Below are positions 7,131 through 26,541 of a DNA stretch of 64,000 bases, piece by piece (positions within the stretch are counted from its first letter, which is position 1; each line of letters opens with the position of its first letter). The DNA is from Sphingomonadales bacterium (GTDB lineage Bacteria; Pseudomonadota; Alphaproteobacteria; Sphingomonadales; Sphingomonadaceae). A program made the translations under genes and the position numbers. The notes below the pieces were generated by a model that was given only the letters and a program-made list of their open reading frames with translations, searched no databases and was not told where the DNA came from. The stretch is from the NCBI GenBank assembly GCA_027483465.1, contig JAIXUQ010000034.1, forward strand, positions 1 to 64,000. The letters run 5' to 3'.

Positions 7131-7146
7131 GGTCAACGGCCCCCCT

Positions 7147-8430: not shown

Positions 8431-8432
8431 GC

Positions 8433-9779: not shown

Positions 9780-9794
9780 GGCCGCCTTCTCCCT

Positions 9795-11186
9795 TCACAG
9801 CGCCTTCAGCGCCGGTTCGGCTTCGTCCAGCGCGGCGGCAATCGTGTCCACCAGGAAATCAATTTCGGGCCGGGTGATGATCAGCGGCGGGCTCATCACG
9901 ATCGAATCCTTCACGCCTCGCACCATCAGCCCCTTGGCGATGCAGATGTCGCGCACCACAAAGCCGGCCTTGCCGCCGGGGCCAAAGCGGCGGTTCGTGC
10001 CCTTTTCGGCAACGATCTCCACCGCGCCGATCAGGCCCAGGCTGCGCGCCTCTCCCACCAGCCGGTGCCCGGCCAGCCGCTCGGCCAGCCGCTGCGCCAG
10101 ATAGGGGCCGGTGTCTTCGGCGGTGCGGCGCACCAGCGCCTCGCGCTCCATGATGTCAAGATTGGCCATGGCGACGGCGGCGGCGGTGGGATGGCCGCTG
10201 TAGGTATAGCCATGAACGAAATCATCGGCCTCGGCCTTGATCGCGGCAACGACATGATCGGCCACACCCACCGCCGAAATCGGCAGATAGCCCGAGCTCA
10301 GCGCCTTGGCCATGGTGATCAGATCGGGCTGGATGCCATAATGCTGGTGGCCAAACCAGCGGCCCAGCCGGCCAAAGCCGCAGATCACCTCGTCACACAC
10401 CAGCAATATGCCATATTTGCGGCAGATCGCCTCCACCCGCGGCCAATAGCCGGCGGGCGGGATGATGACGCCGCCGGCGCCCTGCACCGGTTCGCCCACG
10501 AAGGCGGCGACATTTTCCGGCCCGGCGGCCAGGATGGCATCCTCCACCGCTTGCGCGGCGCGGGCGGCAAAATCCGCCTCGCTCTCGCCAAAGCCCTCGG
10601 CGAACTGATAGGGCTGCATCACATGCACGAAACCGGGCAACAGCGGCCCGCCCTGGGCGTGCATCGGCGCCATGCCGCCCAGGCTCATGCCGGCGATGGT
10701 CGATCCGTGATAGCCATTCACGCGGCCGATGATCACCTGCCGCTGCGGCTGGCCCTGCACCTGCCAATAATGGCGCACGATGCGGATCATCGTGTCGATC
10801 GCTTCGCTGCCCGATGAATTGAAGAAGACATGCTGCAACCGCCCGCCCATCAGGCCGGCCAGCCGTGCCGCCAGTTCGACGGTGGGCGGCGTCGTCGTCT
10901 TGAAGAAGCTGTTGTAATAGGGAAGCTCCAGCATCTGGGCATGGGCGGCATCGGCCAGTTCGCGCCGGCCATAGCCCACCGCCACGCACCACAGGCCGGC
11001 CATGCCATCCAGCAGCCGCACGCCATCGCCATCAATGATGGTGGAGCCTTCGGCGCGCACGATGATGCGGCTGCCGCCCATGTCCTCCACCGCCTGCCAA
11101 TCCTGCTGTGGGGCGAGGTGATGGGCGACATCCAGCCGGCGCAGTTCGGCAATATCGTGGTTGCGCAGCGAAACAGGCGGGGTCAT
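9795..11186 (-). CDS. spuC: Class III aminotransferase, putrescine:pyruvate type
   Basis: PLP-dependent omega-amino acid/diamine aminotransferase of 463 residues. The cofactor aspartate lies in LLVCDEVICGFGRLG and the Schiff-base lysine in ITMAKALSSGY. The SGSEAIDTMIRI and GYHGSTIAGMSLGGM blocks are typical of the SpuC/YhxA group, which moves the putrescine amino group to pyruvate to give 4-aminobutyraldehyde. The start ATG 11184-11186 overlaps the puuD stop by one base (TGATG), and an upstream in-frame ATG is rejected because it lies inside puuD. This provides a transamination route beside the gamma-glutamyl route. Substrate assignment rests on operon context. Confidence 0.87.
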   Translation of the reverse strand: MTPPVSLRNHDIAELRRLDVAHHLAPQQDWQAVEDMGGSRIIVRAEGSTIIDGDGVRLLDGMAGLWCVAVGYGRRELADAAHAQMLELPYYNSFFKTTTPPTVELAARLAGLMGGRLQHVFFNSSGSEAIDTMIRIVRHYWQVQGQPQRQVIIGRVNGYHGSTIAGMSLGGMAPMHAQGGPLLPGFVHVMQPYQFAEGFGESEADFAARAAQAVEDAILAAGPENVAAFVGEPVQGAGGVIIPPAGYWPRVEAICRKYGILLVCDEVICGFGRLGRWFGHQHYGIQPDLITMAKALSSGYLPISAVGVADHVVAAIKAEADDFVHGYTYSGHPTAAAVAMANLDIMEREALVRRTAEDTGPYLAQRLAERLAGHRLVGEARSLGLIGAVEIVAEKGTNRRFGPGGKAGFVVRDICIAKGLMVRGVKDSIVMSPPLIITRPEIDFLVDTIAAALDEAEPALKAL

Positions 11187-11938
11187 CAATCGCTCTCCGG
11201 CACCAGCGGCTGGCCACGCAGCGCGCGCCCCAGCAACTGGAAAAACTGGGCGGATGCGGCATTGGCATCGGCATCCCATTCCGGATGCCATTGCACGGCC
11301 AGCACCGGCGCACCGTTCGCGCTGCCCGAAACCGCCTCCACCATGCCATCGGGTGCGCGCGCCTCCACGGCCAGGCCCGCGCCCAATTCGGCAATGCCCT
11401 GATAATGCACGCTGTTGACGTTGAGCGCCAGTGCCCCGTGCGCCCGCGCCAGGATGCCGCCGGGCGCCAGCGCCACATCATGGCGATGATCGAACATGGC
11501 AGCAAACGCGACATCATCGGGTGCATGATGCGCCATCGCCGCGCCAGCCTGGCGGGTGAGGCGGCCGCCAAGCGCGACATTGATTTCCTGCAGGCCGCGG
11601 CAGATGCCGAACAGCGGCTTGCCCAGCCCCAGCGCCCCGGCCACCAGCGCCTGCATCATGGCGTCGCGGCCCGGATCATGCGGCGGATCGCCGTCTTCAT
11701 CCTCACCATAAAGGCGCGGCTGCACATTCGACGGGCTGCCGGTGAGCAGCACGCCATCCAGCCGGCCGATCACCTCGCGCGCGCTCATCAGATCGGGCAG
11801 GGCAGGCACCAGCAGGGCGGCGCAATCGGCATGGCGCATGGCCGCCCGCACATAGCGGTTGATGACGCTTTGCGCCGGTTCCACCCCCACCTGGCGGGTG
11901 CAGCAGATGATGCCCAGCACGGGCCGGCTGTCGCTCAT
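11186..11938 (-). CDS. puuD: Gamma-glutamyl-gamma-aminobutyrate hydrolase
   Basis: Class I glutamine amidotransferase-like hydrolase (peptidase C26) of 250 residues, predicted to release GABA and glutamate from gamma-glutamyl-GABA. The nucleophile cysteine is in PLFGICRGLQEIN and the His-Glu pair in VQWHPEWD. The start ATG 11936-11938 overlaps the potA stop as ATGA. The gene is followed by the aminotransferase with a one-base overlap, so the three gene products are likely made from coupled translation. It is the last step of the gamma-glutamylated putrescine pathway; the aldehyde dehydrogenase that would feed it is missing here. Confidence 0.92.
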   Translation of the reverse strand: MSDSRPVLGIICCTRQVGVEPAQSVINRYVRAAMRHADCAALLVPALPDLMSAREVIGRLDGVLLTGSPSNVQPRLYGEDEDGDPPHDPGRDAMMQALVAGALGLGKPLFGICRGLQEINVALGGRLTRQAGAAMAHHAPDDVAFAAMFDHRHDVALAPGGILARAHGALALNVNSVHYQGIAELGAGLAVEARAPDGMVEAVSGSANGAPVLAVQWHPEWDADANAASAQFFQLLGRALRGQPLVPESD

Positions 11939-13062
11939 GTCAGCAGCACCGCCGGCGAACAGGCATGCCAGGCCAGCCACACCGCTTCGCCCAAGGCGAA
12001 ATCCTCCTGATCCCACCGCGTGAGGTTAGAACGCAGCGCCTTCAGCCGCTGGCCATCGCCCAGTTCCACCTCATAGAGCGATTCGCTGCCCAGATAGGCG
12101 ACATGGCGGATGGTGCCGGCCACCACGTTGCGCCCCGGCGGCGCATCGCCGGGATGGGGCGGGGCGGGCGATGCCGGATCATATTTGTGCAATTCGATCT
12201 TTTCCGGGCGCAGCGCCACCCACAGGCTGGTGCCGGCCGCACCCGTCACGCCATGATCAAGGAACAGCGGCTCTGCGATGCCGGCCACGGCGATCTCGGC
12301 ATGGTCAGGCTCGTCCACCACCAGCCGGCCTTCGAGCAGGTTCACCGATCCGATGAAATCGGCGACAAAGCGGCTGGCCGGGAATTCATAGAGATCAGAG
12401 GGGCTGGCCACCTGCTGCAACAGGCCGCGCTGCATCACCGCGCAGCGATCGGCCAGCGCCAACGCCTCGTCCTGATCATGGGTGACCATGACGAAGGTGA
12501 TGCCCACCTTGGCCTGCAACTGGCAGAGTTCGGTGCGCATCGCCTCGCGCAGCTTGGCATCCAGCGCCGACAGGGGCTCATCGAGCAGCAGCACGCGCGG
12601 CCGCTTGACCAGCGCGCGGGCCAGCGCCACCCGCTGCCGCTGCCCGCCCGACAATTGGTCGGGCCGGCGGTCGCCGAAATTGTCCAGCTTCACCAGCGCC
12701 AGCGCCTCGGCCACGCGCGCCGCGCGCTCGGCCGCGCCAACCCCGTCAACCTTCAGGCCATAACCGACATTGTCGGCCACGCTCATGTGCGGGAACACGG
12801 CATAATTCTGGAACACCATGTTCACCGGCCGGCGGTTGGGCGGCACCGCGGTCACATCCTGGCCATCGATCAGGATGCGGCCTTCCGAGGGCACTTCAAA
12901 GCCGGCCAGCATGCGCAGCAGCGTGGTCTTGCCGCAGCCCGACGGCCCGAGCAGGGCGAAAAACTCGCCCTCCCGCACCTCAAGGCTGACATTGTCCACC
13001 GCCAGCACCTTGCCATAGCGTTTGGTGACGCCATCGAAGCAGATGATCGCATCGCCCTTCAT
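11935..13062 (-). CDS. potA: Polyamine ABC transporter ATP-binding protein
   Basis: A 375-residue ATPase of the PotA/PotG type that powers putrescine or spermidine uptake. It shows Walker A GPSGCGKTT (from residue 39), the Q-loop region NMVFQNYAVFPHM, the ABC signature LSGGQRQR, Walker B VLLLDEP and the H-loop VTHDQDEA. About 120 C-terminal residues form the TOBE regulatory domain (LWVALRPEKIEL). It overlaps potI by four bases upstream and puuD by four bases downstream. Together with potI, potH and potF it makes a complete importer. Confidence 0.96.
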   Translation of the reverse strand: MKGDAIICFDGVTKRYGKVLAVDNVSLEVREGEFFALLGPSGCGKTTLLRMLAGFEVPSEGRILIDGQDVTAVPPNRRPVNMVFQNYAVFPHMSVADNVGYGLKVDGVGAAERAARVAEALALVKLDNFGDRRPDQLSGGQRQRVALARALVKRPRVLLLDEPLSALDAKLREAMRTELCQLQAKVGITFVMVTHDQDEALALADRCAVMQRGLLQQVASPSDLYEFPASRFVADFIGSVNLLEGRLVVDEPDHAEIAVAGIAEPLFLDHGVTGAAGTSLWVALRPEKIELHKYDPASPAPPHPGDAPPGRNVVAGTIRHVAYLGSESLYEVELGDGQRLKALRSNLTRWDQEDFALGEAVWLAWHACSPAVLLT

Positions 13063-13892
13063 GCCGCCTCCTTGCCCAGATCAGCGCCCTGCAGCCACAG
13101 CGCCAGCGCGGTGAGCAGGGCGGTGAGCAGGATCAGCAGGGTGGAGGCGGCATTGACCGCCGGCGTGACCGAAAAGCGCACCATGGCATAGACTTTCACG
13201 GGGAAGGTGATGGTATCCGGGCCCGAGGTGAAGAAGGTGATGACGAAATCATCGAGGCTGAGGGTGAAGGCCAGCAGCGCACCGGCCACCAGCCCCGGCA
13301 CCAGGTGCGGCAGGATGATATCCCGCAGGATCAGCCATTCGCCGGCGCCCAGATCGCGCGCCGCCTCGATCAGCGCCATGTCGAAACTGGCGAGCCGGGC
13401 GCGTACCACCAGCGCGACAAAGCTGAACGAGAAGGTGGCGTGGGCGAGGATGATGGCGCCCAGGTTGAGCGGCCAGGGCAGTTCCGCCGGCCAGGGCACC
13501 ACGGCGGTGAAAAACACCAGGAAGGCGACGCCCAGCGCGATTTCCGGCACCACGATCGGCAGGCCCAGCACCGCTTCCAGCGCGGCCTTGCCGGCAAAGC
13601 GGAAGCGCCACAGCAGCAGCGCGGTGGCGGTGCCCACTGCCAGCGCGATCAGGGTGGAAACCAGCGCGATCACCAGCGAATTGCCGAAGGCGGCCAGCAA
13701 TTCGCCATCTTCAAACAGGCTGGCATACCAGCGGGTGGTGAAGCCGCGCCAGGCGGTGGTGCGCCGGCTGTCGTTGAAACTGAAGACAATCAGGATCAGC
13801 AGCGGCGCATAGAGGAACAGGCCAACCCCGGCCAGCCACAGCCGCAGCGGCCAGCGCGCCAGATAATCCAGTGGCCCCGATGGCGTGCCCAT
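13059..13892 (-). CDS. potI: Polyamine ABC transporter permease, PotC/PotI type
   Basis: Inner-membrane permease of 277 residues with about six transmembrane helices. The first, APLLILIVFSF, is followed by NDSRR, a hallmark of PotC/PotI proteins. The EAA coupling loop is ALIEAARDLGAGEWLILRDI, and FTLSLDDFVITFFTSG is the conserved C-terminal segment. The start ATG 13890-13892 overlaps the potH stop by one base (TGATG); longer in-frame starts would sit inside potH and lack homology. It pairs with PotH to form the channel. Confidence 0.94.
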   Translation of the reverse strand: MGTPSGPLDYLARWPLRLWLAGVGLFLYAPLLILIVFSFNDSRRTTAWRGFTTRWYASLFEDGELLAAFGNSLVIALVSTLIALAVGTATALLLWRFRFAGKAALEAVLGLPIVVPEIALGVAFLVFFTAVVPWPAELPWPLNLGAIILAHATFSFSFVALVVRARLASFDMALIEAARDLGAGEWLILRDIILPHLVPGLVAGALLAFTLSLDDFVITFFTSGPDTITFPVKVYAMVRFSVTPAVNAASTLLILLTALLTALALWLQGADLGKEAA

Positions 13893-14791
13893 CAGCCCTG
13901 CGCCTCCCGCGCGGCGCTGCGCCGCTGCGCCAGCGCCTGCACCGCCAGCGCGATGAAGGTGAGATACATGAGGAGGAACGACAGCGCCGCCCCGAACGGC
14001 CAATCATTGGCGGAACGGAACTGGCGCTCGATGATGTTGGCGATCATCTGGCTGTTGGTGCCCCCCAACAGATCGGGGGCGAGATAGGCGCCCAGCGCCG
14101 GGATGAAGGTGATGATGATGCCCGAGACGATGCCGGGCAGCGCCAGCGGCACCACCACGCGCCACAAGGTGGCCAGATGGCCGGCACCCAGATCGAGGCT
14201 GGCCTCGATCAGCGAGCGGTCAAGCCGGTCGAGCGCGGCATAGAGCGGCAACACCATGAACGGCAGGTGGACATAGACAAGGCCCACCAGCACGGCGAAA
14301 TTATTGTTGATCAGCGGCAGCGGCTCGAACGGGCCGGCCCCCAGCGGCACCGCCACCGTTCCCCACAGCGCGCCCGCCAGGCTGTTGATCTGGCCTTCGG
14401 TGCGCAGGATCGCCATCAATGCATAGGTGCGGATGAGCAGGTTGGTCCAGAACGGCAGCATGATGGCCACCAGCAGCGCCAGCCGCGCGCGCGGCCCGGC
14501 AAAGGCGATGCTGAGCGCCACCGGCAGGCCAACAATGAAGCAGATGGCCGTGGTGATGCCGGCAAACAGCAGCGATTTCAGCAGGATCGCCAGATAGAGC
14601 GGTTTCAGCGCGCGGGCATAATTGGCCCAACTGCCGGTGATCGCGATATCGATGAGGGTGCGGTTCTCGCCAAAGCTGTAGCCCCAGATCACCGCCAGTG
14701 GCGCTGCAAACAGCAGCAGCAGCCAGGCCAGCGGCGGCACTGCCAGCAGCGTGAACAGCAACGGGGCAGAGCGGGCGGGCTGCTCCTTCAT
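13892..14791 (-). CDS. potH: Polyamine ABC transporter permease, PotB/PotH type
   Basis: Inner-membrane permease of 299 residues. After a short cytoplasmic N terminus comes the first helix (about residues 12-36, ending before GYSFGENR), and the EAA loop is seen as SLIEASLDLGAGHLATLWRV. The segment LPFMVLPLYAALD is typical of PotB/PotH. It overlaps potF by four bases (ATGA) and potI by one. Gene order F-H-I-A differs from the Escherichia potFGHI order because the ATPase comes last. Confidence 0.94.
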   Translation of the reverse strand: MKEQPARSAPLLFTLLAVPPLAWLLLLFAAPLAVIWGYSFGENRTLIDIAITGSWANYARALKPLYLAILLKSLLFAGITTAICFIVGLPVALSIAFAGPRARLALLVAIMLPFWTNLLIRTYALMAILRTEGQINSLAGALWGTVAVPLGAGPFEPLPLINNNFAVLVGLVYVHLPFMVLPLYAALDRLDRSLIEASLDLGAGHLATLWRVVVPLALPGIVSGIIITFIPALGAYLAPDLLGGTNSQMIANIIERQFRSANDWPFGAALSFLLMYLTFIALAVQALAQRRSAAREAQG

Positions 14792-15855
14792 GCCGCCATC
14801 ATCCTTGTGATGGCTTCATCAACGGCGCGGATATGGCCAATGCCTTCAAAGCGGCCATATTCGCTGTTCGCCATGCCGGGGCCGGTGGGGAAAATCACCG
14901 GATTGTTGCGATACTCGCCGGGCATCAGCGCCAGCGCGGCGGCATTGGGCGTGGGATAGCGGATGGTCTGCGAAATGCCGGCGCTCACCTGGGCATCCAG
15001 CAGATAGTTGATGAAGCGATGGGCATTGTCGGGCCGCGGCGCCCCGGCCGGGATGCACAGGCTGTCGCTGTTGATCAGCGTGCCTTCGCGCGGCACCACA
15101 AAGCCCAGATCATCATCATCGGCGATCACCTGCGCCATGTCGCCATTATATTCCACCACCAGATCGATATCGCCGGCGGCCAGCAGATCCTGGCCTTCAT
15201 CGCGGTGGAACAATTTCACATGGCGTTTCTGGGCGATCAGCATGTCGGTCACCCGGGTCATCAGCGCGGGGCCAACATCATTCACCGAGTGGCCCAGATA
15301 TTTGGCCCCCAGCCGGATCAGATCGTCGCTTTCGGCAAACAGGCCGATGCGCCCGGAATAGCGATCGGAATCGAGCACCCATTTCCACGAATCCGGCACC
15401 CCATCCACTTTCGACTTGCGATAGCCGATGCCCAGCACCAGCCACGTGTAGGGCATCGACCAGCGCCGCCCCGGATCGTAGGGCACATCGCGGAACGCCG
15501 GCGCCAGATTGGCCATGTTGGGGATGCGGCCGTGATCCAGGGGCTGCAACAGGCCCGACATGCCCAGCCGCGTGACAAACTCGTTGGACGGCACGATCAC
15601 ATCGAAACCGGGATTGCCGGCGCGCAGCCGGGCAAACAGTTCGTCGTTGTTGGCATAAAGGCTCATGCGCACCTCGATGCCGGTGGCCTTTTCGAAATCG
15701 GCCAGCGTGGTCTCGCCGGTATAAGTGTCCCAATTGTAGAAATTGACCCGGCGCTCCTCGCCATTGGCACCCTTGGGCCAACGCTTGGCGCAGCCATCCA
15801 GCACCAGCGCCGCCGCGATGCCGGAAAGGGCGCTGCGGCGGTTCAGATCAGGCAT
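14788..15855 (-). CDS. potF: Polyamine-binding periplasmic protein of the Pot transporter
   Basis: Solute-binding protein of 355 residues (spermidine/putrescine family). The leader MPDLNRRSALSGIAAALVLD ends at GC (C22). The pair RR at 6-7 suggests Tat-type export, and C22 may be lipid-modified although the aspartate at -2 makes the lipobox atypical. The mature start has the family block VNFYNWDTYTGETTLADFEK, and EYNGDMAQ and ILP/IPAGAPRPDNAHRFINY follow, as in PotD/PotF. It overlaps the upstream ligase gene by eight bases. Ligand preference (putrescine versus spermidine) is not determined by the sequence. Confidence 0.93.
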   Translation of the reverse strand: MPDLNRRSALSGIAAALVLDGCAKRWPKGANGEERRVNFYNWDTYTGETTLADFEKATGIEVRMSLYANNDELFARLRAGNPGFDVIVPSNEFVTRLGMSGLLQPLDHGRIPNMANLAPAFRDVPYDPGRRWSMPYTWLVLGIGYRKSKVDGVPDSWKWVLDSDRYSGRIGLFAESDDLIRLGAKYLGHSVNDVGPALMTRVTDMLIAQKRHVKLFHRDEGQDLLAAGDIDLVVEYNGDMAQVIADDDDLGFVVPREGTLINSDSLCIPAGAPRPDNAHRFINYLLDAQVSAGISQTIRYPTPNAAALALMPGEYRNNPVIFPTGPGMANSEYGRFEGIGHIRAVDEAITRMMAA

Positions 15856-17215
15856 TGGCCAGATACCATTCCAGATCGAGCGGCGGCACCACCGCCATGT
15901 AACGCTCCTGCTCGGTGCGCTTCACGCTGGCAAACATCGTCACCAACTGCTCGCCCAGCGCGGCCTTGAGAATCTGGCCGCCGGCCAGCGCGTCCACCGC
16001 GGCAAACCAGTTGCCCGGCAGCGGCGCGGCGCCGGGATCATGGGCCGCCGCCGCGGCATAGCCATCGCCCACCACCGGCGGGCCCGGATCAAGCCGGCCG
16101 GCCAGCCCGTGCGCCACCCCGGCCAGCAGCGCCGCCAGCGCCAGATAGGGATTGGCATCGGCGCCGGCGATGCGATGCTCGATATGGCGGCTGCCCGGCG
16201 GCCCGGCTGTTACCCGCAGGCTGGTGGTGCGATTGTCATGCCCCCAACTGGCCGCCACCGGGGCAAAGCTGCCGGCCCTGAACCGGCGATAGCTGTTGGC
16301 ATTGGGCGCAAAAATCGCAAAACTTTCGGCCAGCGCCGCCTTCAGCCCGCCCAGCGCGTGCAGCAGCGGCGGGGATGGCTGGCCCGGCGGCGAGGCGAAG
16401 ATATTGTGGCCGGCCGCATCGTTGATCGACACATGCAGGTGCAGACCATTGCCGGCCAGATCGGCAAAGGGCTTGGCCATGAAGCTGGCGAGCAGGCCGT
16501 GCCGGCGCGCCACCTGCTTCACCAGCCGCTTGTAGAGCACGACATCATCGGCCACGCGCAGCGGATCGGCGCGGTGCTTCAGGGTCAGCTCCATCTGGCC
16601 GGGGGCATATTCGGAAATGGCGGTTTCCAGCGGCAGGCCGGCGGCATCGGCCGCTGCCCACAGATCAGCCAGGAACGGCCCGGCATCGTCCAGTTCCTCC
16701 AGGCCATAGGTGCCGTGGGTGGTGGGCGTGCCGCCGCCGGGCATGGCCGGTCGCAGCGGCTCGCCCGGCGCGCGGGCCAGGAGATAGAATTCCAATTCGC
16801 AGGCCACCACCGGCGTGAGGCCCAGGGCGGTGATGCCGGCCACGGCGCGATCCAGCACGGCGCGGCAATCAATGTCACACACCGGGCCATCGGGTTCGAA
16901 CAGGCTGGTGATCACCGCGGCATGGCCGGGCGCGGTGGGCACCAGCGTCCCCGGCGCCGGGCGGGCCAGCCGGTCACTATCGCCATTCTCCCACACCAGC
17001 CCGGTATCGAAACAATCCTGCCCGGTCACATCGGCGACCAGGATCGATACCGGCAGCGGCCGTCCCCCGGCATAGAGCGCCGCCAGTTCGTGGGCACGGA
17101 TGCGCTTGCCGCGCGCCGTGCCCGACAGGCCGGTGAAGATGATATCGATGAACCGGGTTTCGGGATGGGCAGCCAGAAAGTCCCGGCCTTCCGCCGGCGG
17201 CGCGATCATGATCAT
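15848..17215 (-). CDS. Second glutamine synthetase-family gamma-glutamyl-amine ligase
   Basis: First gene of the polyamine operon. It encodes a 455-residue GS-fold ligase, paralogous to puuA at 8433-9779 but clearly diverged. Motifs include FTGLSGTARGKRI at the N terminus, ACELEFYLLAR, NGLHLHVS and HIEHRIAGADANPYLAL. The start at ATG 17213-17215 has GGAGG eight bases upstream; a second ATG two codons later is possible, and longer versions reach a low-complexity Cys/Pro segment and are rejected. It overlaps potF by eight bases. It may act on a different amine (spermidine, 1,3-diaminopropane or a monoamine) or be a second gamma-glutamylputrescine synthetase; context cannot decide. Confidence 0.87.
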   Translation of the reverse strand: MIMIAPPAEGRDFLAAHPETRFIDIIFTGLSGTARGKRIRAHELAALYAGGRPLPVSILVADVTGQDCFDTGLVWENGDSDRLARPAPGTLVPTAPGHAAVITSLFEPDGPVCDIDCRAVLDRAVAGITALGLTPVVACELEFYLLARAPGEPLRPAMPGGGTPTTHGTYGLEELDDAGPFLADLWAAADAAGLPLETAISEYAPGQMELTLKHRADPLRVADDVVLYKRLVKQVARRHGLLASFMAKPFADLAGNGLHLHVSINDAAGHNIFASPPGQPSPPLLHALGGLKAALAESFAIFAPNANSYRRFRAGSFAPVAASWGHDNRTTSLRVTAGPPGSRHIEHRIAGADANPYLALAALLAGVAHGLAGRLDPGPPVVGDGYAAAAAHDPGAAPLPGNWFAAVDALAGGQILKAALGEQLVTMFASVKRTEQERYMAVVPPLDLEWYLANA

Positions 17216-17386
17216 GGCAGCGGCCTCCGGCAACGGGCAGGGCGGCGGACAGAGCGGTGGACAGGGCGGCGGGCCGGCGTTTTGGATTGGATCCCCATTG
17301 GCAGCATCATGGCAAAGCGGCCTGCCGGCGGCAACTCCCCGCGCGCGGGGCATTTTCCCCATGGCGCGGCGGGCGTGGCTGCGCCT
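17216..17386 (-). promoter_or_regulatory. Presumed promoter region of the polyamine operon
   Basis: These 171 bases separate the end of the amine dehydrogenase cluster from the first polyamine gene, both on the minus strand. It is the only sizeable gap upstream of the operon, so a promoter here is inferred from position. It contains a palindrome CCCCGCGCGCGGGG at 17337-17350, which could end the upstream transcript although no T-run follows, and a short GGACAG(A/G)GCGG repetition at about 17230-17270. No confident -35/-10 or operator could be assigned. Confidence 0.4.
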
Positions 17387-17917
17387 TCAGCCGCCCTTGC
17401 GTGACCGGGTGGCAGCCAGCCGCGGCGGGGCCTGGCCAGGATACATCAGCCGCAGCGCCGCCGGAGCGCCGCACTGGCGGATCAACTGTTCCACCAGCAC
17501 GGCGCGGGTTTCGACCAGCGAGACGGAGGTGAAGGGCGTGGACCGCGCCTGCGCCACTTCGGCGCCGGTGAATTTCTTCGTGCCGGCCGGGGTGGAGGAT
17601 CCGCCCAGGCCGAACAGCATGAAATTCAACAGATCGGCGAGCTGGTCATTGTCGGTGATGCGGGAGCGGGCGATGTTGGGCAGCCGCACCAGATAGGCGC
17701 GGCCCTGCGGCAGGCAGGTGAACCAGCCGACCCGATCCTTCAGCGTGGGCAGATCGGCCGGGGCGGCGATGCCATGGATGCCATGGCAGCCGCCGCAATG
17801 CTCGACATAATCCGATTGCGCCTGGGTCATTTCCGCCGGGTAGCTGGGGGCCGCTGCCGGCTGGGCCGCCGCCGGCAACGCCACCACCAGAGCACCCAGG
17901 GCCAGCGCGGCGCGCAT
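17387..17917 (-). CDS. Periplasmic monohaem c-type cytochrome of the amine dehydrogenase cluster
   Basis: A 176-residue exported protein: signal peptide residues 1-19 (ending AAAQ), one haem-binding CGGCH at 41-45, and no second CxxCH. It directly follows the TTQ light-chain gene (gap five bases). In the Alcaligenes faecalis aau cluster, as I recall it, a small monohaem cytochrome gene also follows aauA, which makes this the likely electron acceptor or relay for the dehydrogenase. The start ATG 17915-17917 is chosen because it begins the signal peptide; longer frames run into the light-chain gene. The C-terminal half (about 90 residues with PGTKKFTGAEV) has no motif I recognise. Confidence 0.85.
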   Translation of the reverse strand: MRAALALGALVVALPAAAQPAAAPSYPAEMTQAQSDYVEHCGGCHGIHGIAAPADLPTLKDRVGWFTCLPQGRAYLVRLPNIARSRITDNDQLADLLNFMLFGLGGSSTPAGTKKFTGAEVAQARSTPFTSVSLVETRAVLVEQLIRQCGAPAALRLMYPGQAPPRLAATRSRKGG

Positions 17918-17922
17918 CGGCC

Positions 17923-18468
17923 TTACTGCGCCTTGCCCACCATCACCGCGGTGGAGCAGTGATATTCCATGCTGCTGGTGCCGAAACACCAGATCACATT
18001 GTTGTTGAGCTGCGGCATGTAGAGCTGCGTTTCGCGATCGGTGTTGTCGCAGCCGCACTGGCCGCAACCGGCCTTGCCGCAGCAATCGCGATAGGCGATC
18101 AGATAGGCGTTGCCATCGTCAGGATTGATGCAGGTGCCCACCCAGGAAACCGGCGATGGCTCGGTGCCGGCCGGGCAGGAGGCGACGCCACCGCCGCAGC
18201 AGCTGCACAGGCTGCCATCAATGGCACAATAGCGCCAGTAATTGCACTTGGTGTCGTCCTTGGTCTGCGCGTTGCGGGCGAATTCGGTCTTGGCCTCGGG
18301 CGACCGGTCCGGCTTGGCGGCGCGGGCGCGGCTGACGGGCAGCAGCGGGAAGACCGGCGCGGCCACGATGGTGGCGCCCAGTTTGGTCAGGAACGAGCGG
18401 CGCGAGCTGTTGCCCGCCATCCGGCGCAACAGCCGTTCGCCCATGCCATCCAGATCAAATCCGCTCAT
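17923..18468 (-). CDS. aauA: Quinoprotein amine dehydrogenase light chain (TTQ subunit), AADH type
   Basis: Catalytic small subunit of a periplasmic tryptophan tryptophylquinone amine dehydrogenase, which oxidises primary amines to aldehydes plus ammonia. The 181-residue precursor has a Tat leader (SSRRSFLTKLG, RR at 23-24). The two cofactor tryptophans are W109 (PVSWVGTC) and W160 (VIWCFG), 51 residues apart as in the family; D84 and D128 (RDCC) match the acidic residues needed for TTQ formation and catalysis. Fourteen cysteines follow the leader, twelve at the family's disulphide positions. W109, W160 and D128 agree with the AADH numbering I remember. S172 stands where AADH has Thr172. Confidence 0.93.
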   Translation of the reverse strand: MSGFDLDGMGERLLRRMAGNSSRRSFLTKLGATIVAAPVFPLLPVSRARAAKPDRSPEAKTEFARNAQTKDDTKCNYWRYCAIDGSLCSCCGGGVASCPAGTEPSPVSWVGTCINPDDGNAYLIAYRDCCGKAGCGQCGCDNTDRETQLYMPQLNNNVIWCFGTSSMEYHCSTAVMVGKAQ

Positions 18469-18493
18469 CTCGGTTAACCCCCCAAACCTGCCG

Positions 18494-19120
18494 TCACTCA
18501 GCCGCCACACCAACCGCCGGAGCCGTGCGCTGGCCCAGCGTCTTCACATAATCCTGCACATGCGCCACGCCCATCTCGTGGGCATTGATCAGGCTTTCCA
18601 GATGCTCCCGGCTGTTGACCAGGCCCTTGGACAGCACGGTGCCGGCCGCATCGAGCAGCACGGCGTGGGGCAGCTTGTCCACCTCGAACAACTGGCCCAC
18701 CTCGCCGCTGTTGACAAAGCTGCCCGGCGCCAAGTCGTGCGCCGCCGCCATCGCCTTGAGCGCGGCCGGATCATCATCGCCCACGAACAGCAGCGAGACC
18801 CGCTCGGCCGCCGCGAAATTCTTCGCCACCGGGATCAGCCCCTTGCACAGCGGGCAGGCCGGCGAGACAAACATCAACAGGCGCAGGCCCGGCAGGCCGG
18901 AAGCACCGCCCACCACCATCGCCTTGCCATCCAGCGTGGTGGCCGGGATCGGCGGGGCAATCTCGCCCAGCGCCGGGCCGCGCCCGGCATCAAGCGCACC
19001 GGCCGGGGCAACGCGCACATGCAGCACGCCCACCTGCCGCGCCAGCGCCAGGCCCGCCACGCCCAGTCCGGCCAGCACCAGCCATTGCAGAACTTCGTTG
19101 ATGATCAGCAGGATATCCAT
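18494..19120 (-). CDS. aauD: Amine dehydrogenase accessory thioredoxin-like protein
   Basis: A 208-residue membrane-anchored thioredoxin-fold protein, equivalent to MauD/AauD, needed to form the six disulphides of the light chain or keep it stable. One N-terminal transmembrane helix (about residues 9-28) is followed by a periplasmic domain with the redox motif CPLC (C89, C92) in FVSPACPLCKG, and a cis-proline-type VDKLPHAVLLD segment. It lies 8 bases after aauE and 25 before the light-chain gene, the family order B-E-D-A. No other disulphide enzyme is encoded nearby. Confidence 0.92.
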   Translation of the reverse strand: MDILLIINEVLQWLVLAGLGVAGLALARQVGVLHVRVAPAGALDAGRGPALGEIAPPIPATTLDGKAMVVGGASGLPGLRLLMFVSPACPLCKGLIPVAKNFAAAERVSLLFVGDDDPAALKAMAAAHDLAPGSFVNSGEVGQLFEVDKLPHAVLLDAAGTVLSKGLVNSREHLESLINAHEMGVAHVQDYVKTLGQRTAPAVGVAAE

Positions 19121-19128
19121 CGCCGCCC

Positions 19129-19680
19129 TTATCCCTTGATGCCGGGCGCCAGCCCGTGCGAGGCCGCCGATTGCGCCAGCCGGCGCAGGGCGGCAAACAG
19201 ACCGGCAAGCAGATAGAGCGCCGTTCCGGCCAGCAGCGCCAGCAGCCGCGTTGCCGCATCAGCCGGGGCCGCCGCCAGCACCGGCAACGCCAGCAGCAGC
19301 GCCATGGCGAGGCCGATGTTGCGCAACACCGGCCCCCAGCCCAGCGGCTGGCGCAGCGCGGCATGGCCACAGCCGCAATCGATGTGCCGGCGCCCGCGCC
19401 CGATGTTGATCGCCATGGCACCGGCAAAAACCAGCAGCAGCGCCGCCGCCGCCAGCGCCGCCGGGGCCAGCCCGGCGAGCAGGCCGAGCGCCACCAGCAG
19501 TTCGGCCGGGGCCAGCAGCAGCGCCGCCGGCGCCACCGCCCAGCCGGGCAGCAGGCGGTAATTGGCGATCACGCCGGGCAGCAGCGCGCGGTGCCGCAGC
19601 TTGCCGATGGCGGCCACGGCAAACAGCAGCGCCACCGCCGCCATCACCGCCAGCGCCAGCAGGGCAGGCACCGCCGCCAT
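19129..19680 (-). CDS. aauE: Amine dehydrogenase accessory integral membrane protein (MauE family)
   Basis: A 183-residue protein with about four or five transmembrane helices and the MauE-type motif HIDCGCG between helices (near residues 97-103). MauE/DoxX-like proteins work with MauD in folding or export of the TTQ light chain; the paired cysteines in the loop fit a redox relay to AauD. It lies five bases after aauB and eight before aauD. It is rich in alanine and leucine, as is normal for this family. Confidence 0.9.
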   Translation of the reverse strand: MAAVPALLALAVMAAVALLFAVAAIGKLRHRALLPGVIANYRLLPGWAVAPAALLLAPAELLVALGLLAGLAPAALAAAALLLVFAGAMAINIGRGRRHIDCGCGHAALRQPLGWGPVLRNIGLAMALLLALPVLAAAPADAATRLLALLAGTALYLLAGLFAALRRLAQSAASHGLAPGIKG

Positions 19681-19685
19681 CGCGC

Positions 19686-20897
19686 TTATTCGCCGCCCAC
19701 GGTGGCGATGATGCCACCGCCGGTGCGTTCCACCTTGTGCTTTTGCTCAAAGCTGGTGCCATCCATGATGATGGTGGCGCCTTCATCGCCGGTCATGAAC
19801 AGCAGCGGCTTGTCGTCCTGGGTCACTTCCAGGTTGCTGGCACGCACCTTCAGCGGCACGCGCTTCTTCACCTTGCGGCTGGCCAGATCGACCACCCAGA
19901 TTTCCTCGCCGTCTTCCTTCTGGGTCCAATATTCGCCGCGGTGCATCAGCACATAGAGCGTGCCGGTCTTGCGGTGCAGCGCCATCAGCTGGCGGCCGCC
20001 CGGCATCCAGTTGATGTCAAGCGGCCTGGTGTCCCCCGGGCGCAGGCCGGCGGCGGCCTGGATCGACCAGGCCTCACCCACCGTGGGCGCCGCGCCCATC
20101 TTGGCGGTGCGGATCAGGCCGGTGTAGGTGAGGAACACCGCAGTGCCGGTGCCCCGGTCATAGATATAACTGTCAAAGATCGGGTCTTCGGCGGCCTTGA
20201 AGAAGGGCTGGCTGTGGGTGATCACCGGCGCCTTGCCGGCCAGCGCGACGGTGGCGATGGTGCCATCGCTGCACAGCGAGGCAAAACCCACGCCGGCCAC
20301 CGGCATCAGGCTGGCGCAGCCGGGCAGTTCCACCACGCGGCCCATCTTGCGCTTTTCCAGATCGACCACGTTCACCGACGAGGCCGGGCTGAAATTGTAG
20401 ACAAAGCCGGTCTTGCCATCATCGCTGATGACGAAATTGTTCTTCATCGCGCCGATGATCAACCGGCCGGGCAGGGGAATTTCGCTGAGCAGCGCCAGCG
20501 TCACCGGATCATAGACCGCGATATAATCCTGCCGCGTGCCGCGGTTGATCTTGCTCCAGATGGTTTCGGCAACATAGATCGCCTTGCCGGCGGGATCGAG
20601 CGCCAGATCGGACCAGCGGGTGGTCTGCACCAGGCCCAGCATCTTCCCGCTGTCCCCATCCAGGATGCGGGTGCCGCCGCTTTCCCAGCCGCCGCGCACA
20701 AAGCCCCAGCGCTGGGACAGCGGCGGCAATTTGTGGGTGTAAGCCTCTTCGGGCTGCAGGCCGTTGGGATCGCCCGACGGGGCTGCGGCCGGCTGCGCCG
20801 ATGCCATTGAGCCCAGTGCCGCCGCTGCGAGCAGCAGGGTGCGGCCAGCCCAATGGCCCCGATGGCGCAGCGCCCGCCCTGTTGTTGCCTTCACCAT
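19686..20897 (-). CDS. aauB: Quinoprotein amine dehydrogenase heavy chain
   Basis: The large, non-catalytic subunit (403 residues) of the TTQ enzyme, expected to fold as a seven-bladed beta-propeller around the light chain in the periplasm. A signal peptide covers residues 1-34 (ending ASA). Repeated short beta-blade segments are visible, such as AIYVAETIWSKINRGTRQDYI, IGAMKNNFVISDDGKTGF and LDINWMPGGRQLMALH. The start ATG 20895-20897 is chosen because the signal peptide begins there and an AGGGGGG lies upstream. It is first in the B-E-D-A-cytochrome run, so the cluster promoter should lie in 20898-21152. Confidence 0.92.
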   Translation of the reverse strand: MVKATTGRALRHRGHWAGRTLLLAAAALGSMASAQPAAAPSGDPNGLQPEEAYTHKLPPLSQRWGFVRGGWESGGTRILDGDSGKMLGLVQTTRWSDLALDPAGKAIYVAETIWSKINRGTRQDYIAVYDPVTLALLSEIPLPGRLIIGAMKNNFVISDDGKTGFVYNFSPASSVNVVDLEKRKMGRVVELPGCASLMPVAGVGFASLCSDGTIATVALAGKAPVITHSQPFFKAAEDPIFDSYIYDRGTGTAVFLTYTGLIRTAKMGAAPTVGEAWSIQAAAGLRPGDTRPLDINWMPGGRQLMALHRKTGTLYVLMHRGEYWTQKEDGEEIWVVDLASRKVKKRVPLKVRASNLEVTQDDKPLLFMTGDEGATIIMDGTSFEQKHKVERTGGGIIATVGGE

Positions 20898-20970: not shown

Positions 20971-21152
20971 GCCACATCGGCTCAGCGATGCCCTTGTGGG
21001 CCTGGCCGAATGTGAACGACCGTCATGCTGAGCGCGGGTGCCGGCTTCGTCAAGGGGCGCTTTGGGTGCTTGCGCGAAATGCGTATATCACCTCCGCGTG
21101 CCTTGGGCTTGGCTGATGACGCAGAACCGCAAAACAGGGCAGGGACGGGCAG

Positions 21153-21614
21153 ATGAAGACCATGGGCGTTGGCGTGTTGGCGATGGCCCTGCTGGCGGCG
21201 GCGCCGGCGGCGGCGCAGGGGGCCGATGGGTTTGTGGCGCGCTGCGGCATGTGCCACCAGGCCACCGGCGAGGGCCTTGCCGGCCAGTTCCCGCGGCTGG
21301 CGGGCCGCGCCGCGGCCATTGCCCAGAGCGAGCCCGGCCGCCGTTACATGGTGCGGGTGGTGCTGGGCGGCATGGCCGGGCCGATCAGCGTGGACGGCAA
21401 GCCGCTGATGGGCGTGATGCCGGGCATGGCCAGCCTGTCGGACGATCAGATCGCCGCCGCGCTCAACCAGGCGCTGGCGCTGGGCAAGCCGGCCAAGCCG
21501 GCCAAGCCGTTCAAGCCGGCCGATGTGGCCAAGGTGCGCGCCGAAGGCCGCCCGGCAATGGCCGACAATGCCGCCCTGCGCGCCGAACTGGTGGGCAAGG
21601 GCCTGATCCCCTGA
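21153..21614 (+). CDS. Small periplasmic c-type cytochrome, divergent from the amine dehydrogenase cluster
   Basis: A 153-residue class I-type monohaem cytochrome with a signal peptide (residues 1-22), haem motif CGMCH (31-35) and a likely axial methionine in PLMGVMPGM. A lysine-proline stretch (GKPAKPAKPFKPADV) follows the haem domain, and a charged tail of about 40 residues ends the protein. It shares an intergenic region with aauB but points the other way. It may be a second electron carrier for the amine dehydrogenase or for a respiratory chain. It ends five bases from the stop of the convergent TPR-sulfotransferase gene. Confidence 0.86.
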   Translation: MKTMGVGVLAMALLAAAPAAAQGADGFVARCGMCHQATGEGLAGQFPRLAGRAAAIAQSEPGRRYMVRVVLGGMAGPISVDGKPLMGVMPGMASLSDDQIAAALNQALALGKPAKPAKPFKPADVAKVRAEGRPAMADNAALRAELVGKGLIP

Positions 21615-21618
21615 TCGT

Positions 21619-23634
21619 TCAGGCCAGATCGGGCGGCACCGCCGGATAAAGCCGGGCGACATCGCCCAGCGTGTCGGCCAGCGGGCCCAGCCAGGGCGCA
21701 AAGCCCTTCCACTGATCCAGCCCTTCGGTGAAAATCGGCCGGCGCACCTGTTCGGAGCTGGCAGTGCGCACCGCCCGCTCGGTCTGCCAGAAGGTGAGGC
21801 AGGCGGGCTCGAACGGCAGGCCGCAGGCGGCGAGCAGGCGGCGCACCTGGGTTTCGGTGTCGGCCACCATATCCTCATGCAACACGCGGATCACGGCGCC
21901 GGGCAGCACCCGGTCCACCGCCGCCATATGGCGCACATAATCGCGGTAATAGCGGCCAACTTCAACCAGATCATAGGAAAAACTCTGGCCGCGGGCGAAG
22001 TGCTGTTTCCACGCTGAAAAGCCGCAGGCCATCGGGTGCCGCCGGGCATCGATGATGCGGGCGCGCGGCAGCACCAGCCGGATCAGGCCAACATGGCTCC
22101 AGTTGTTGGGCATCTTGTCGATGAACAGCGGCCGGCCGCTCTTGCGGTGCACGCGGGTGCGATCCAGATATTCCTCGCCCAGCCGCTGCCGGTCCGCCGG
22201 CGACAGGCTGGTATAAAGCGCCGACAGGCTGGGGAATTCACCGTCGTCCACCCGCGCGGCCAGGCGGGCGGCGATCATCATCATTTCCGGCAATTCCATC
22301 GTGCCTTCCACGGCGGAATGGCTGGCCAATATCTGTTCGATCAGGGTGGAGCCGCTGCGCGGCAGGCCCAGGATGAAGATGGGATCATCGGCCGGGCAGC
22401 CGCCATCACCGGCCGCCGCCACCACGTCCAGCGCGGCGATGCAGCCGTCAATCTCCCGGCTGAAGGCATCGGCATCATGCACGATCAGGGTGCGGCGCAG
22501 GCGGTTGCCCTGGTCATAATGGCCAAAGGCAGCCGCATGCTCGGCGCGGTCCTCATGCGCCTTGCCCAGCGCGAAATGCAGGTGGAAACGGTCTTCGGTG
22601 CGCTCGCCGCCGTCCAGGCTGGCCAGGGCTGCGCCCATCGCGGCAATATCGGCTTCGTCCAGCTTCACCGTCTTCAGATTGGCCAGGCTCCACCAGGCCT
22701 CGCCCAGCGCCGGCTGGCGGCTGGTGGCCTCGCGATAGGCCGCCACCGCCTCGGCCTGGCGGCCCAGTGTCTTTTCGACATGGCCCAGATTCTGCCACAC
22801 CAGCGGCTGGCCCGGCGCCTTGGCCAGGATGGCGCGATACAGGTCACGCGCCGCCTCCTGCTCGCCCAGCCGCACCAGCACAGACGCCCGGATCAGCGCA
22901 TGGCCGGGGTGGGGGCGCGGCGATCCGGCCAATATGTCGGCCTGCTCGCGGGCTTCGGGCAGGCGGTTGGTCGCCATCAGCAGGCGGATCAGGAATTCGC
23001 GCGCCAGATCATGGCCGGGCGCCAGCGTCAGCGCGGCGTGCACCTGTTCGATGGCGGCGGCGATATCGCCCTGGCGCCAGATCACTTCGCCCAGCAGCCG
23101 CGCCGCCGGCGCATCATCGGGCGTCTGCGCCAGCCGCGCCCGCAGCAGCGCCGCCGCCTCGTCCAGCCGTTCTTCACGCATGGCCAGTGCGGCCTTGATC
23201 AGTTCAGGATCATTGGCCGCTGCCTCCACACCGTCCAGATCGGCGGCCCAGGCCTTGGCCGGTTCGCCGATGGCGCGATACTGGCGCGCAAGCAGGAACC
23301 AGCCGCCGGCCACCGCCGGCCAGTGGCGCGTGAGATGCGCCAGCGCCCGGATCGCGCCGGCATGGTCCCCGGCTTCGGCGGCGGCCTGCGCCAGTTCCCA
23401 ACTGGCGGCCGGCACGCCCGGGTGGCGGGCGGCCAGCCCCGTCAGCAGGGGCACCGCCTCGGCGGCGCGGCCCAGCGCCCGCAAAGCCTGGCCGGCGATC
23501 AGCGTGGCGCGCGGCTCCTCCGGCGCGCGGGCCAGCACGGCCTGTGTCAAGGCCAGCGCTCGTGCCGGATCGCCGGCCAGTGCCGCCTGCGCATCGGCAA
23601 TCGCTGCCATGCCATCTTGAGCCTGTGTCGCCAT
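21619..23634 (-). CDS. Tetratricopeptide-repeat sulfotransferase
   Basis: A 671-residue cytoplasmic protein. The N-terminal 380 or so residues are alanine-rich TPR helices (for example AVAAYREATSRQPALGEAWW). The C-terminal domain is a PAPS-dependent sulfotransferase with the 5'-phosphosulfate loop GLPRSGSTLIEQIL near residue 424 and the 3'-phosphate region RARIIDARRHPMA. The ATG at 23632-23634 is preferred to the ATG seven codons upstream because AAAGGGGG lies just before it. It is divergent from a TonB receptor, a pairing often seen in sphingomonads. The acceptor substrate is unknown. Confidence 0.9.
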   Translation of the reverse strand: MATQAQDGMAAIADAQAALAGDPARALALTQAVLARAPEEPRATLIAGQALRALGRAAEAVPLLTGLAARHPGVPAASWELAQAAAEAGDHAGAIRALAHLTRHWPAVAGGWFLLARQYRAIGEPAKAWAADLDGVEAAANDPELIKAALAMREERLDEAAALLRARLAQTPDDAPAARLLGEVIWRQGDIAAAIEQVHAALTLAPGHDLAREFLIRLLMATNRLPEAREQADILAGSPRPHPGHALIRASVLVRLGEQEAARDLYRAILAKAPGQPLVWQNLGHVEKTLGRQAEAVAAYREATSRQPALGEAWWSLANLKTVKLDEADIAAMGAALASLDGGERTEDRFHLHFALGKAHEDRAEHAAAFGHYDQGNRLRRTLIVHDADAFSREIDGCIAALDVVAAAGDGGCPADDPIFILGLPRSGSTLIEQILASHSAVEGTMELPEMMMIAARLAARVDDGEFPSLSALYTSLSPADRQRLGEEYLDRTRVHRKSGRPLFIDKMPNNWSHVGLIRLVLPRARIIDARRHPMACGFSAWKQHFARGQSFSYDLVEVGRYYRDYVRHMAAVDRVLPGAVIRVLHEDMVADTETQVRRLLAACGLPFEPACLTFWQTERAVRTASSEQVRRPIFTEGLDQWKGFAPWLGPLADTLGDVARLYPAVPPDLA

Positions 23635-23901
23635 CGCACCCCCTTTTGTGGCCAAGGCTTAACCGGCCGTGGCAGGCCCTGCAATTGCCCGCGCGCTGCC
23701 GGCGGCGGTGGCTGGGCCCGGTGGGGGAGTGCAAAACGACGTATTGCGGTGCGCGATGGCGGCGTCATGCTGATGTCACAAACGGGCGTGTGCCCGGTTG
23801 CGTGCCAGTGTGCCGGCAGGCGGGAGGCCGAACAAACCCGCCGCCGGATGAAGCGGTCACCGGGGGGTGGCCTTGGCGAAGACTATGGGGGTTGAACAAC
23901 A
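23635..23901. promoter_or_regulatory. Divergent promoter region between sulfotransferase and TonB receptor
   Basis: 267 bases with no credible reading frame. It must contain the promoters of both flanking genes. A short hairpin ACGGGCGTGTGCCCGG lies at about 23784-23800. A GGGGGTT about 11 bases before the receptor ATG is the only visible ribosome site. No known operator was recognised. Confidence 0.4.
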
Positions 23902-26541
23902 ATGATCATCCGGAACCGCCGCCGCAGCCAGTTCCTGCACCTGCTGGGCTTGTCCACCATGCTCTCCGGCCTGGCCGTGCCGGCCATCGCTGCCGAGGAT
24001 CAGCCGGCCGCCGCCGCCGCTGCCGAACCCGAGTCGGGCTTTGAGGAAATCATCGTCACCGCCACCCGCAGCGCCCAATCCATCCAGAAGGTGCCGATCT
24101 CCATTCAGGCGCTCACCGCCGACACGCTGGCCCAGCGCCAGGTCAAGGGCCTGTCAGACTTTGCCGTGCTGCTGCCGTCGGTGTCCTTCGCCGGCCTGGG
24201 GCCGGGCCGCACCGAAGTCTATTTCCGCGGCATCGTGCCGGCCGGCGGTGCCTATCCGGCCACCGGCTATTATCTCGACGACATCTCGATCAACGTGAAC
24301 AACCTGCCCGATGTCCACCCCTATGATCTGGAGCGGATCGAGGCGCTGTCGGGCCCGCAGGGCACGCTGTTTGGCGCCGGTTCGCTGGCCGGCACCATCC
24401 GCGTGATCACCGCCAAGCCCAAGCTGGGCGAAACGCTGGGCGGCATCGATCTGGAGCTCAACAAATATGGCAAGGGCGATGGCGGCGGCCAGGCCCAGGG
24501 CTTCATCAATCTGCCGCTGGGCGAAACCATGGCGGTGCGCGCCATGGCCTATTACCGGCGCGAGGGCGGCTATGTGGACAATGTGCCCAACAATGGCCTG
24601 TTCAACACCGGTCAGCCGGCGCTGCTGAACCTGGGGGACAACAACCCGCTCACCCGCCGCACGCTCAACAACAGCGCCTTCGTGAAGGATGATTACAACA
24701 GCATCGACGAGTTCGGCGGCCGCCTGCAACTGCTGTGGGAGCCGGCCGAGGGCTGGTCGATCAACCCGATGGTCACCGCCCAGCGCCAGATCTCGCGCGG
24801 TTATTTCGGCTTCGATCCGCGTGTGGGTGATCTGCAGGTGCATGACTATGACGTCACCCGGCAGGATGACAAATGGTACCAGGCGCAAATGGCGATCAAG
24901 GGCCATATCGGCGATTTCGAACTGGTCAGCGCCACCGGCTATTTCCGCCGCAACATCAAGTTGCTGAACGATTACACCTATTATACCGTGGCCTATGACA
25001 GCTTCGGTCCGGGCTATGAATCCTATCTGCAGTTCTTCGATCGTTCGGGCTGCACCGGTTCGGGCGCGTCGCTGCGCTGCACCACGCTGCTCAACCCGCA
25101 GCAATATTACAGCGGCAACCGCAACGAATATATCTTCAGCCAGGAACTGCGGCTGAAAACGCCGTCAAGCTGGCCAGTGGATGTCACCGTCGGCGGTTTC
25201 TACCAGTGGCAGAAGAACGAGATCAACGATGACTATGCCACCCGCGGGCTGAGCAACATCGTGGGCTATACCGAAGCCGGTGGTGGTGACCGGGCCGATT
25301 TCGCCACCTCGTTCGGCGTGCCCACCGCGCAGGGCGGCAGCATGATCCTCGGCTCCCCGGCAGTGAAGCGCGATGCCTTCTACATGACCGAGCAGGACCG
25401 GCGCACACGCGACGCGGCGGTGTTTGCCGAAGGCCATTACAACATCACCCCCGAAATCAAGCTGACCGGCGGCATCCGCTATTTCTGGACCGAGCTGGAC
25501 GTGGTCGGCTTTGCCGGCGTGGCCGCCTCGGCCCGCAACGTGCGCTCCACCTTCGTGCCCACCGGCGCGGCCGGTTGCCCGGTGCCGTTTCCGGCCGAGC
25601 GTTTGCAGTGCCTCAACACCAACTTTGCCCGGCCTGATCAGAAGTTGCTCTACCGGGAGCAGGGGGTGACCTACAAGATCGCGGCGGACTGGCAGATCAC
25701 CCCGTCAAAGCTGGTCTATATCAACTATTCCACCGGCTTCCGCCCCGGCGGCCAGGGCCGGCCGCTGCGCATCGGCGGCCAGGTCTATGCGGTGGCGCCG
25801 TTCCGCTCCGAAGACCTGATCAACTATGAAATCGGCTTCAAGACCACTTGGGGCAACATCTTCCGCTTCAATGCCGCCATCTACATGGAAAAGTGGAAGG
25901 ATCTGCAATATTCGGTGGTTGTCGCCGGGGCGCAGGGCGCCGGCATCACCGGCAACGCCGGCAATGCCGAAGTGAAGGGCATCGAATTTGATGCCGATCT
26001 GAGGCTCGGCAAATTCACCATCTCCACCAGTGGCGCCTTCAACGATGGCAAGCTGAAGGGCAATTTCTGCAACTTCGCTGCGAATGCCGCCAATCTCACC
26101 ATCGGCCAGTTGGCGGATTGCCAGATCGGCGAGTTCGTGCCGGGCAACCCGCCCACGCCCGAAGTGGCCGCCGCCGATGGCACCCGCCTGCCGCGCCAGC
26201 CCAAGTTCAAGGGCACCACGCTGGTGCGCTATGAAACCAAGCTTGGCGGGCTGGATGCCTATCTCCAGGGCGCCGCGCTGTATCAGACCGGCGCCACCCA
26301 GGATCTGAACGTCAGCCTCAACAATCTGCTCGGCAACACCGCCGGCTTCGTCTCGTTCGATTTTGGCGCCGGCATCAAGAAGGACAAGTGGACGCTGGAT
26401 GTGTTCCTGCAGAACGCCTTTGACCGGCGCGGCCTGCTCACCACCAACACCTTCTGCTCGATCTCGATCTGCTCGGGCTCGTCGCGCAGCTTCCCGATCC
26501 GGCCGCAATTCTTCGGCCTGCGCGCCGGTTATCGTTTCTGA
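23902..26541 (+). CDS. TonB-dependent outer-membrane receptor
   Basis: An 879-residue outer-membrane transporter. It has a signal peptide at 1-30 (ending AIAA), a TonB-box-like EEIIVTATR at 48-56, and a plug with PISIQALTADTLAQR and GPQGTLFGAGSLAGTIRVIT. The beta-barrel ends in the aromatic RAGYRF, needed for BamA recognition. The YFRGIVPAG and long extracellular loops do not match a siderophore receptor I know; sphingomonad receptors of this type often serve carbohydrates or aromatics. The substrate is unknown. It is divergent from the TPR-sulfotransferase, and a strong hairpin follows the stop. Confidence 0.94.
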   Translation: MIIRNRRRSQFLHLLGLSTMLSGLAVPAIAAEDQPAAAAAAEPESGFEEIIVTATRSAQSIQKVPISIQALTADTLAQRQVKGLSDFAVLLPSVSFAGLGPGRTEVYFRGIVPAGGAYPATGYYLDDISINVNNLPDVHPYDLERIEALSGPQGTLFGAGSLAGTIRVITAKPKLGETLGGIDLELNKYGKGDGGGQAQGFINLPLGETMAVRAMAYYRREGGYVDNVPNNGLFNTGQPALLNLGDNNPLTRRTLNNSAFVKDDYNSIDEFGGRLQLLWEPAEGWSINPMVTAQRQISRGYFGFDPRVGDLQVHDYDVTRQDDKWYQAQMAIKGHIGDFELVSATGYFRRNIKLLNDYTYYTVAYDSFGPGYESYLQFFDRSGCTGSGASLRCTTLLNPQQYYSGNRNEYIFSQELRLKTPSSWPVDVTVGGFYQWQKNEINDDYATRGLSNIVGYTEAGGGDRADFATSFGVPTAQGGSMILGSPAVKRDAFYMTEQDRRTRDAAVFAEGHYNITPEIKLTGGIRYFWTELDVVGFAGVAASARNVRSTFVPTGAAGCPVPFPAERLQCLNTNFARPDQKLLYREQGVTYKIAADWQITPSKLVYINYSTGFRPGGQGRPLRIGGQVYAVAPFRSEDLINYEIGFKTTWGNIFRFNAAIYMEKWKDLQYSVVVAGAQGAGITGNAGNAEVKGIEFDADLRLGKFTISTSGAFNDGKLKGNFCNFAANAANLTIGQLADCQIGEFVPGNPPTPEVAAADGTRLPRQPKFKGTTLVRYETKLGGLDAYLQGAALYQTGATQDLNVSLNNLLGNTAGFVSFDFGAGIKKDKWTLDVFLQNAFDRRGLLTTNTFCSISICSGSSRSFPIRPQFFGLRAGYRF

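Follow-up and report, generated by a model that had tools for sequence, protein, structure and literature searches.

MauG is the textbook maturase of tryptophan tryptophylquinone (TTQ) and the only one known, yet many TTQ-positive genomes have no detectable member of its family. What completes the cofactor there? We address this question with a 64,000-nucleotide stretch of a Sphingomonadales bacterium (assembly GCA_027483465.1, contig JAIXUQ010000034.1, positions 1 to 64,000 of the forward strand; hereafter the window), in which positions 17387-20897 of the minus strand encode a heavy chain, MauE, MauD, a light chain and a c-type cytochrome, cytX. By its gene families this is a TTQ amine dehydrogenase operon in the aau-like order B-E-D-A-cytochrome. 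We propose, with confidence somewhat short of even, a role for cytX as a single-heme maturase of TTQ that acts in place of MauG; this role is suggested by sequence comparison and is as yet unproven. The operon and a second cytochrome gene, cytY, comprise the following features.

17387..17917, minus: cytX, c-type cytochrome with one heme and no axial-Met stretch, 176 amino acids (aa); candidate TTQ maturase (sequence and fold comparison)
17923..18468, minus: light chain, TTQ-bearing, 181 aa from the ATG at 18468 (PF02975, 177.1 bits, E 1.7e-52)
18494..19120, minus: MauD-like accessory protein, CPLC motif found by eye (TIGR02661, 163.1 bits, E 5.1e-48, under the 188.6 cut-off)
19129..19680, minus: MauE-like membrane protein (PF07291, 77 bits, E 2.1e-21)
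19686..20897, minus: heavy chain, beta-propeller, aauB/mauB-like, 403 aa from its ATG (PF06433, 165.6 bits, E 1.9e-48)
21153..21614, plus: cytY, c552-type cytochrome that bears the Met, transcribed divergently from the operon (PF00034; continuous match to Thermus thermophilus c552, E 2.1e-22)

The operon and the clade of its enzyme

The profile matches, together with the heavy-chain ATG at 20897 and the end of the cytochrome frame at 17387, confirmed the gene order and ends given in an earlier note on this DNA. The heavy chain matched the heavy chains of methylamine dehydrogenase (MADH) and aromatic amine dehydrogenase (AADH) in the PDB with E values from 1e-42 to 7e-16. The PF02975 match of the light chain was the only one in the genome of the window (E 1.4e-52), above the curated cut-off and far beyond chance. 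As in TTQ amine dehydrogenases generally, this chain carries both TTQ tryptophans and the catalytic Asp and shares one gene row with the PF06433 heavy chain, MauE and MauD, the last below its equivalog cut-off. Its leader contains a twin-arginine motif, RRSFLTKLG, recognized by eye. Numbered from the ATG at 18468, W109, D128, W160 and S172 are all present as the note had claimed, and across 133 aligned light chains both tryptophans and the Asp were invariant (W109 in 133/133; W160 in 131/131, with two gaps; D128 in 132/132, with one gap). The mature region holds 14 cysteines, not the twelve first counted; all 14 are common to Alcaligenes faecalis AADH, and twelve do fall at the positions of Paracoccus versutus MADH. 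Nor is S172 a special trait, Ser being the majority state at this residue (109 of 131 aligned rows, with 21 Thr and one Arg).

The B-E-D-A-cytochrome order without mauG is that of the AADH type, for which the aau order, as we take it to be in A. faecalis, served as the comparison. A light-chain tree (133 sequences, 112 columns, many weak forks, no true root) told otherwise about descent. The six MADH rows formed one clade (support 100/100) with the window light chain outside it, and the window sequence grouped with those of sphingomonads, Gluconacetobacter and Caulobacterales. A 99/95 branch parted this side of the tree, on which MADH also lies, from the side with A. faecalis AADH (2agl, on a long end branch) and the Pseudomonas aeruginosa aau copy, leaving the window light chain outside the A. 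faecalis-type clade as well. The window light chain has 58/106 residues identical with A. faecalis AADH and 56/106 with P. versutus MADH, and the path length was 1.85 to each. Both chains scored below the MADH NCBIfam equivalog cut-offs (light, 192.9 against 196.85 bits; heavy, 164.3 against 454.45 bits). Among solved structures, the best light-chain match was the P. versutus MADH precursor at 177.7 bits (a longer chain), mature chains of AADH gave 142 bits and those of MADH at most 134 bits, and the heavy chain leaned to MADH, so that structures leave the choice between the two types unsettled. On these comparisons the enzyme is best placed in a third clade, at the same distance from AADH as from MADH, and its assignment to AADH by descent had to be given up.

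This third-clade enzyme is widespread in sphingomonads, where TTQ dehydrogenases had been thought unusual. Of the 396 order genomes, 44 carry PF02975, at 55 loci; the phylum sample has it in 13 of 398 genomes and the class sample in 13 of 385, each of these two counts taking in the window's own genome and one or two stray matches that are weak. Named genomes, when scanned, yielded 67 related loci, mostly from Sphingomonadales, the closest being Sandarakinorhabdus and other members of that order. Methylacidiphilum (Verrucomicrobiota; L150) has a light chain followed by cytX, possibly a transfer between phyla, and the light chain of Sphingobium sp. Ant17 (L144:9992-10554) lies in two overlapping frames, reflecting a frameshift or a sequencing error.

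cytX and the distribution of MauG

In the order sample, cytX follows the light chain at each of the 55 loci. It occurs in 45 of the 396 genomes; 44 of these are PF02975-positive, and the 45th is truncated by a contig end. By sequence and by fold its closest solved relative is T. thermophilus c552, compared with which cytX is missing some 18 residues from the stretch holding the axial Met (at the position that we presume for it in c552). The stretch was missing in 129/129 distinct cytX sequences, and because it is lost the heme face of cytX should be open. cytX has the fold of a class I, c552-type carrier without its axial-Met stretch; with a single CxxCH and no PF03150 match, it falls outside the family of MauG and the diheme peroxidases. 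A Met-bearing paralogue is often nearby, and cytY is likely an electron carrier. Outside the MADH type, cytX is the heme protein always beside MauD and MauE in the loci compared. One cytX match (G084:C103:17352-17711) contains an in-frame TAA. Open-heme cytochromes bind small ligands, and cytX could on that ground sense or scavenge peroxide or nitric oxide, or be a structural subunit, with no part in TTQ chemistry; its near 1:1 association with the TTQ light chain makes this very unlikely.

MauG is the known TTQ maturase (PMC7876137, PMC6405878) and a diheme protein (PMC7876137). Its family, PF03150, had no match in the genome of the window. It was undetected in 29 of the 44 TTQ-positive order genomes, as in two TTQ-negative genomes of the same search, and in 30 of 57 and 6 of 11 TTQ-positive genomes of further sets, the three sets possibly overlapping. 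Matches in 15 of the 44 compare with 57 of 246 genomes of the order at large; the share is a little higher, yet well short of the whole. The Paracoccus denitrificans proteins MauF, amicyanin, MauJ and MauG gave no tblastn match in the window at E<=1e-6, nor did the window hold a NapGH-like match. Across 177 stretches searched with P. denitrificans Mau proteins, some overlapping or repeating one site, MauF was found in six (L149, L166, L172, L175, L177 and L199), MauJ at the same six places and in L185 (the same site as L199), and MauG in five of the six by tblastn and in L199 by separate searches. cytX was absent from all six of these MADH-type clusters. In the even phylum and class samples, MauG adjoined a clear TTQ locus in only one case.

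Neither TTQ enzymes nor aau-type clusters that include cytochromes are new. What is added here is that cytX has lost the Met stretch, that this loss is constant, and that cytX and MauG exclude each other in the clusters read; searches limited to open-licence papers showed no statement of this. One genome (G1103) holds both a MADH-type cluster with MauF, MauJ and MauG (L199, C55) and a cytX-type cluster (L202, C64), and thus offers a natural test of two maturation routes. Novosphingobium aromaticivorans DSM 12444 has a cluster of the cytX kind on pNL2 (L169). On a plasmid of Sphaerotilus sulfidivorans (L174), two cytochromes, of which one is of cytX type, stand beside no more than a partial light-chain match, and a heavy chain is not annotated, which marks the cluster as a remnant.

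A proposed maturation route and its alternatives

The operon would encode a periplasmic TTQ-dependent amine dehydrogenase of the third clade. Its light chain would be exported by the twin-arginine route, with MauD and MauE guiding its disulfides, and W109 would be oxygenated and then joined to W160. Completion of the cofactor would fall to cytX in place of MauG: the open heme of this c552 derivative, which has lost its axial-Met stretch, may react with O2 or peroxide and take electrons from the precursor tryptophans as a single-heme counterpart of MauG. The mature enzyme may then oxidise amines to aldehyde and ammonia, with D128 as base, and pass electrons to a Met-ligated cytochrome such as cytY. 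A maturase role is the most economical reading because cytX is constant beside MauD and MauE, because it has lost the ligand of a carrier, and because replacement of the Met in mitochondrial cytochrome c gives peroxidase-like activity (PMC8398203).

Several observations weigh against it. The proposed action on the precursor rests on sequence comparison, and MauG has two hemes where cytX has one. On the light-chain tree cytX and MauG change places only once, so that their correlation rests on one event, and too few of the MADH-type clusters were read (of 30 plasmid matches, 15 are annotated mauA, and 4 of these 15 were read). Some Met lies between Arg and Asn in 68 of 129 cytX sequences, at scattered places, and another residue might ligate the heme. 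For one heavy-light pair (L196, G1027:C4, light chain 6844-7401), neither MauD nor cytX was detected within 17 kb; its genome also holds a full cluster (L197), and the pair may be matured in trans. The constant linkage would also fit the main alternative, in which the dehydrogenase hands its electrons to cytX, as its physiological acceptor or as a fixed relay, and TTQ is made otherwise. A small c-type cytochrome next to every light chain of the order sample agrees with an acceptor, and this alternative stays open because the switch is one event and because several loci have no other cytochrome nearby, as judged by a crude gene caller. The missing axial-Met stretch is atypical for a carrier, however, and many of the same clusters encode Met-bearing cytochromes; we regard an acceptor role as rather unlikely, though deserving of serious weight.

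TTQ might also arise by autocatalysis or through an unlinked oxidase or flavoprotein, cytX not being needed. The first hydroxylation of the MADH tryptophan is believed to proceed by autocatalysis, and the formation of cysteine tryptophylquinone involves flavoproteins (PMC7876137). The PF03150 members of the 15 TTQ-positive order genomes are unlinked and no rarer than in the order, and an unlinked peroxidase is possible there, which likewise counts against cytX as maturase. However, no other oxidase family recurs throughout the neighbourhoods compared, and many TTQ-positive genomes have no PF03150 match, making such a route improbable in our judgement.

If cytX is the maturase, a small cytochrome became a tryptophan-oxidising enzyme through loss of its axial-ligand stretch, which would explain the maturation of AADH-type enzymes and provide a small tool for making protein-derived quinones. 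More tentatively still, cytX might found a class of single-heme TTQ maturases, derived from a carrier by axial-Met excision and serving both the AADH type and the sphingomonad clade; this class may predate MauG, which would have replaced it in the MADH lineage.

Neighbouring genes and known systems

The operon adjoins polyamine genes on one side and, beyond cytY, two further genes on the other.

5277..17362, minus: polyamine genes, namely PotF-like, two glutamine-synthetase/PuuA-like, PuuD-like, class III aminotransferase and FAD oxidoreductases (profile and sequence matches)
21619..23655, minus: TPR-sulfotransferase (PF13469; family within 7.5 kb at 33/62 named loci)
23902..26541, plus: TonB-dependent receptor (PF00593; family within 7.5 kb at 32/62 named loci)

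The ATP-binding cassette ATPase and permeases of the polyamine block were named by eye only. The PotF-like gene and the TTQ locus lay on different contigs in 3/3 other same-genus genomes holding both, the distance not being established for three more genomes with a PotF match (those of L086, L087 and L088), and the genomes of two close relatives (L090 and L085) gave no match to the PotF-like gene at E<=1e-50. The polyamine genes are thus not a conserved neighbour, and the amine-utilisation island that the earlier note suggested here finds no support. An A. faecalis-type AADH within such an island would suit the operon order and the adjacency in the window, but the third-clade placement and the separate polyamine genes of same-genus genomes leave it scarcely credible.

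Within 7.5 kb, a TetR-type regulator family was found at 46/62 named loci and a molybdopterin oxidoreductase family at 18/62. All neighbour counts cover 62 of the 67 named loci (L087, L093, L138, L149 and L150 left out) and are rough, with a crude gene caller and families named from single examples. Many relatives have the TetR-type regulator beside the heavy chain; none was called in the short window gap, 20975-21153, before the divergent cytochrome.

Among known systems, the aau cluster of A. faecalis and its plasmid copy in P. aeruginosa RW109 (L167) share the order heavy chain, MauE, MauD, light chain and cytochrome(s) with the window, and the RW109 stretch likewise has a cytX-type cytochrome behind the light chain and no mauG annotated or matched. 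The window differs from aau in its light-chain clade, in Ser172 instead of Thr, and in having one downstream cytochrome and a divergent Met-bearing one. With the mau cluster of P. denitrificans PD1222 (L166) it has the heavy- and light-chain families, MauD, MauE and the TTQ residues in common, whereas it carries cytX and none of MauF, amicyanin, MauJ, MauG or the NapGH-like match. The likeness of cytX to MauG lies in the proposed role only, that of a heme protein completing TTQ: MauG is a diheme protein of PF03150 (heme count from PMC7876137), whereas cytX has one CxxCH and the c552 fold.
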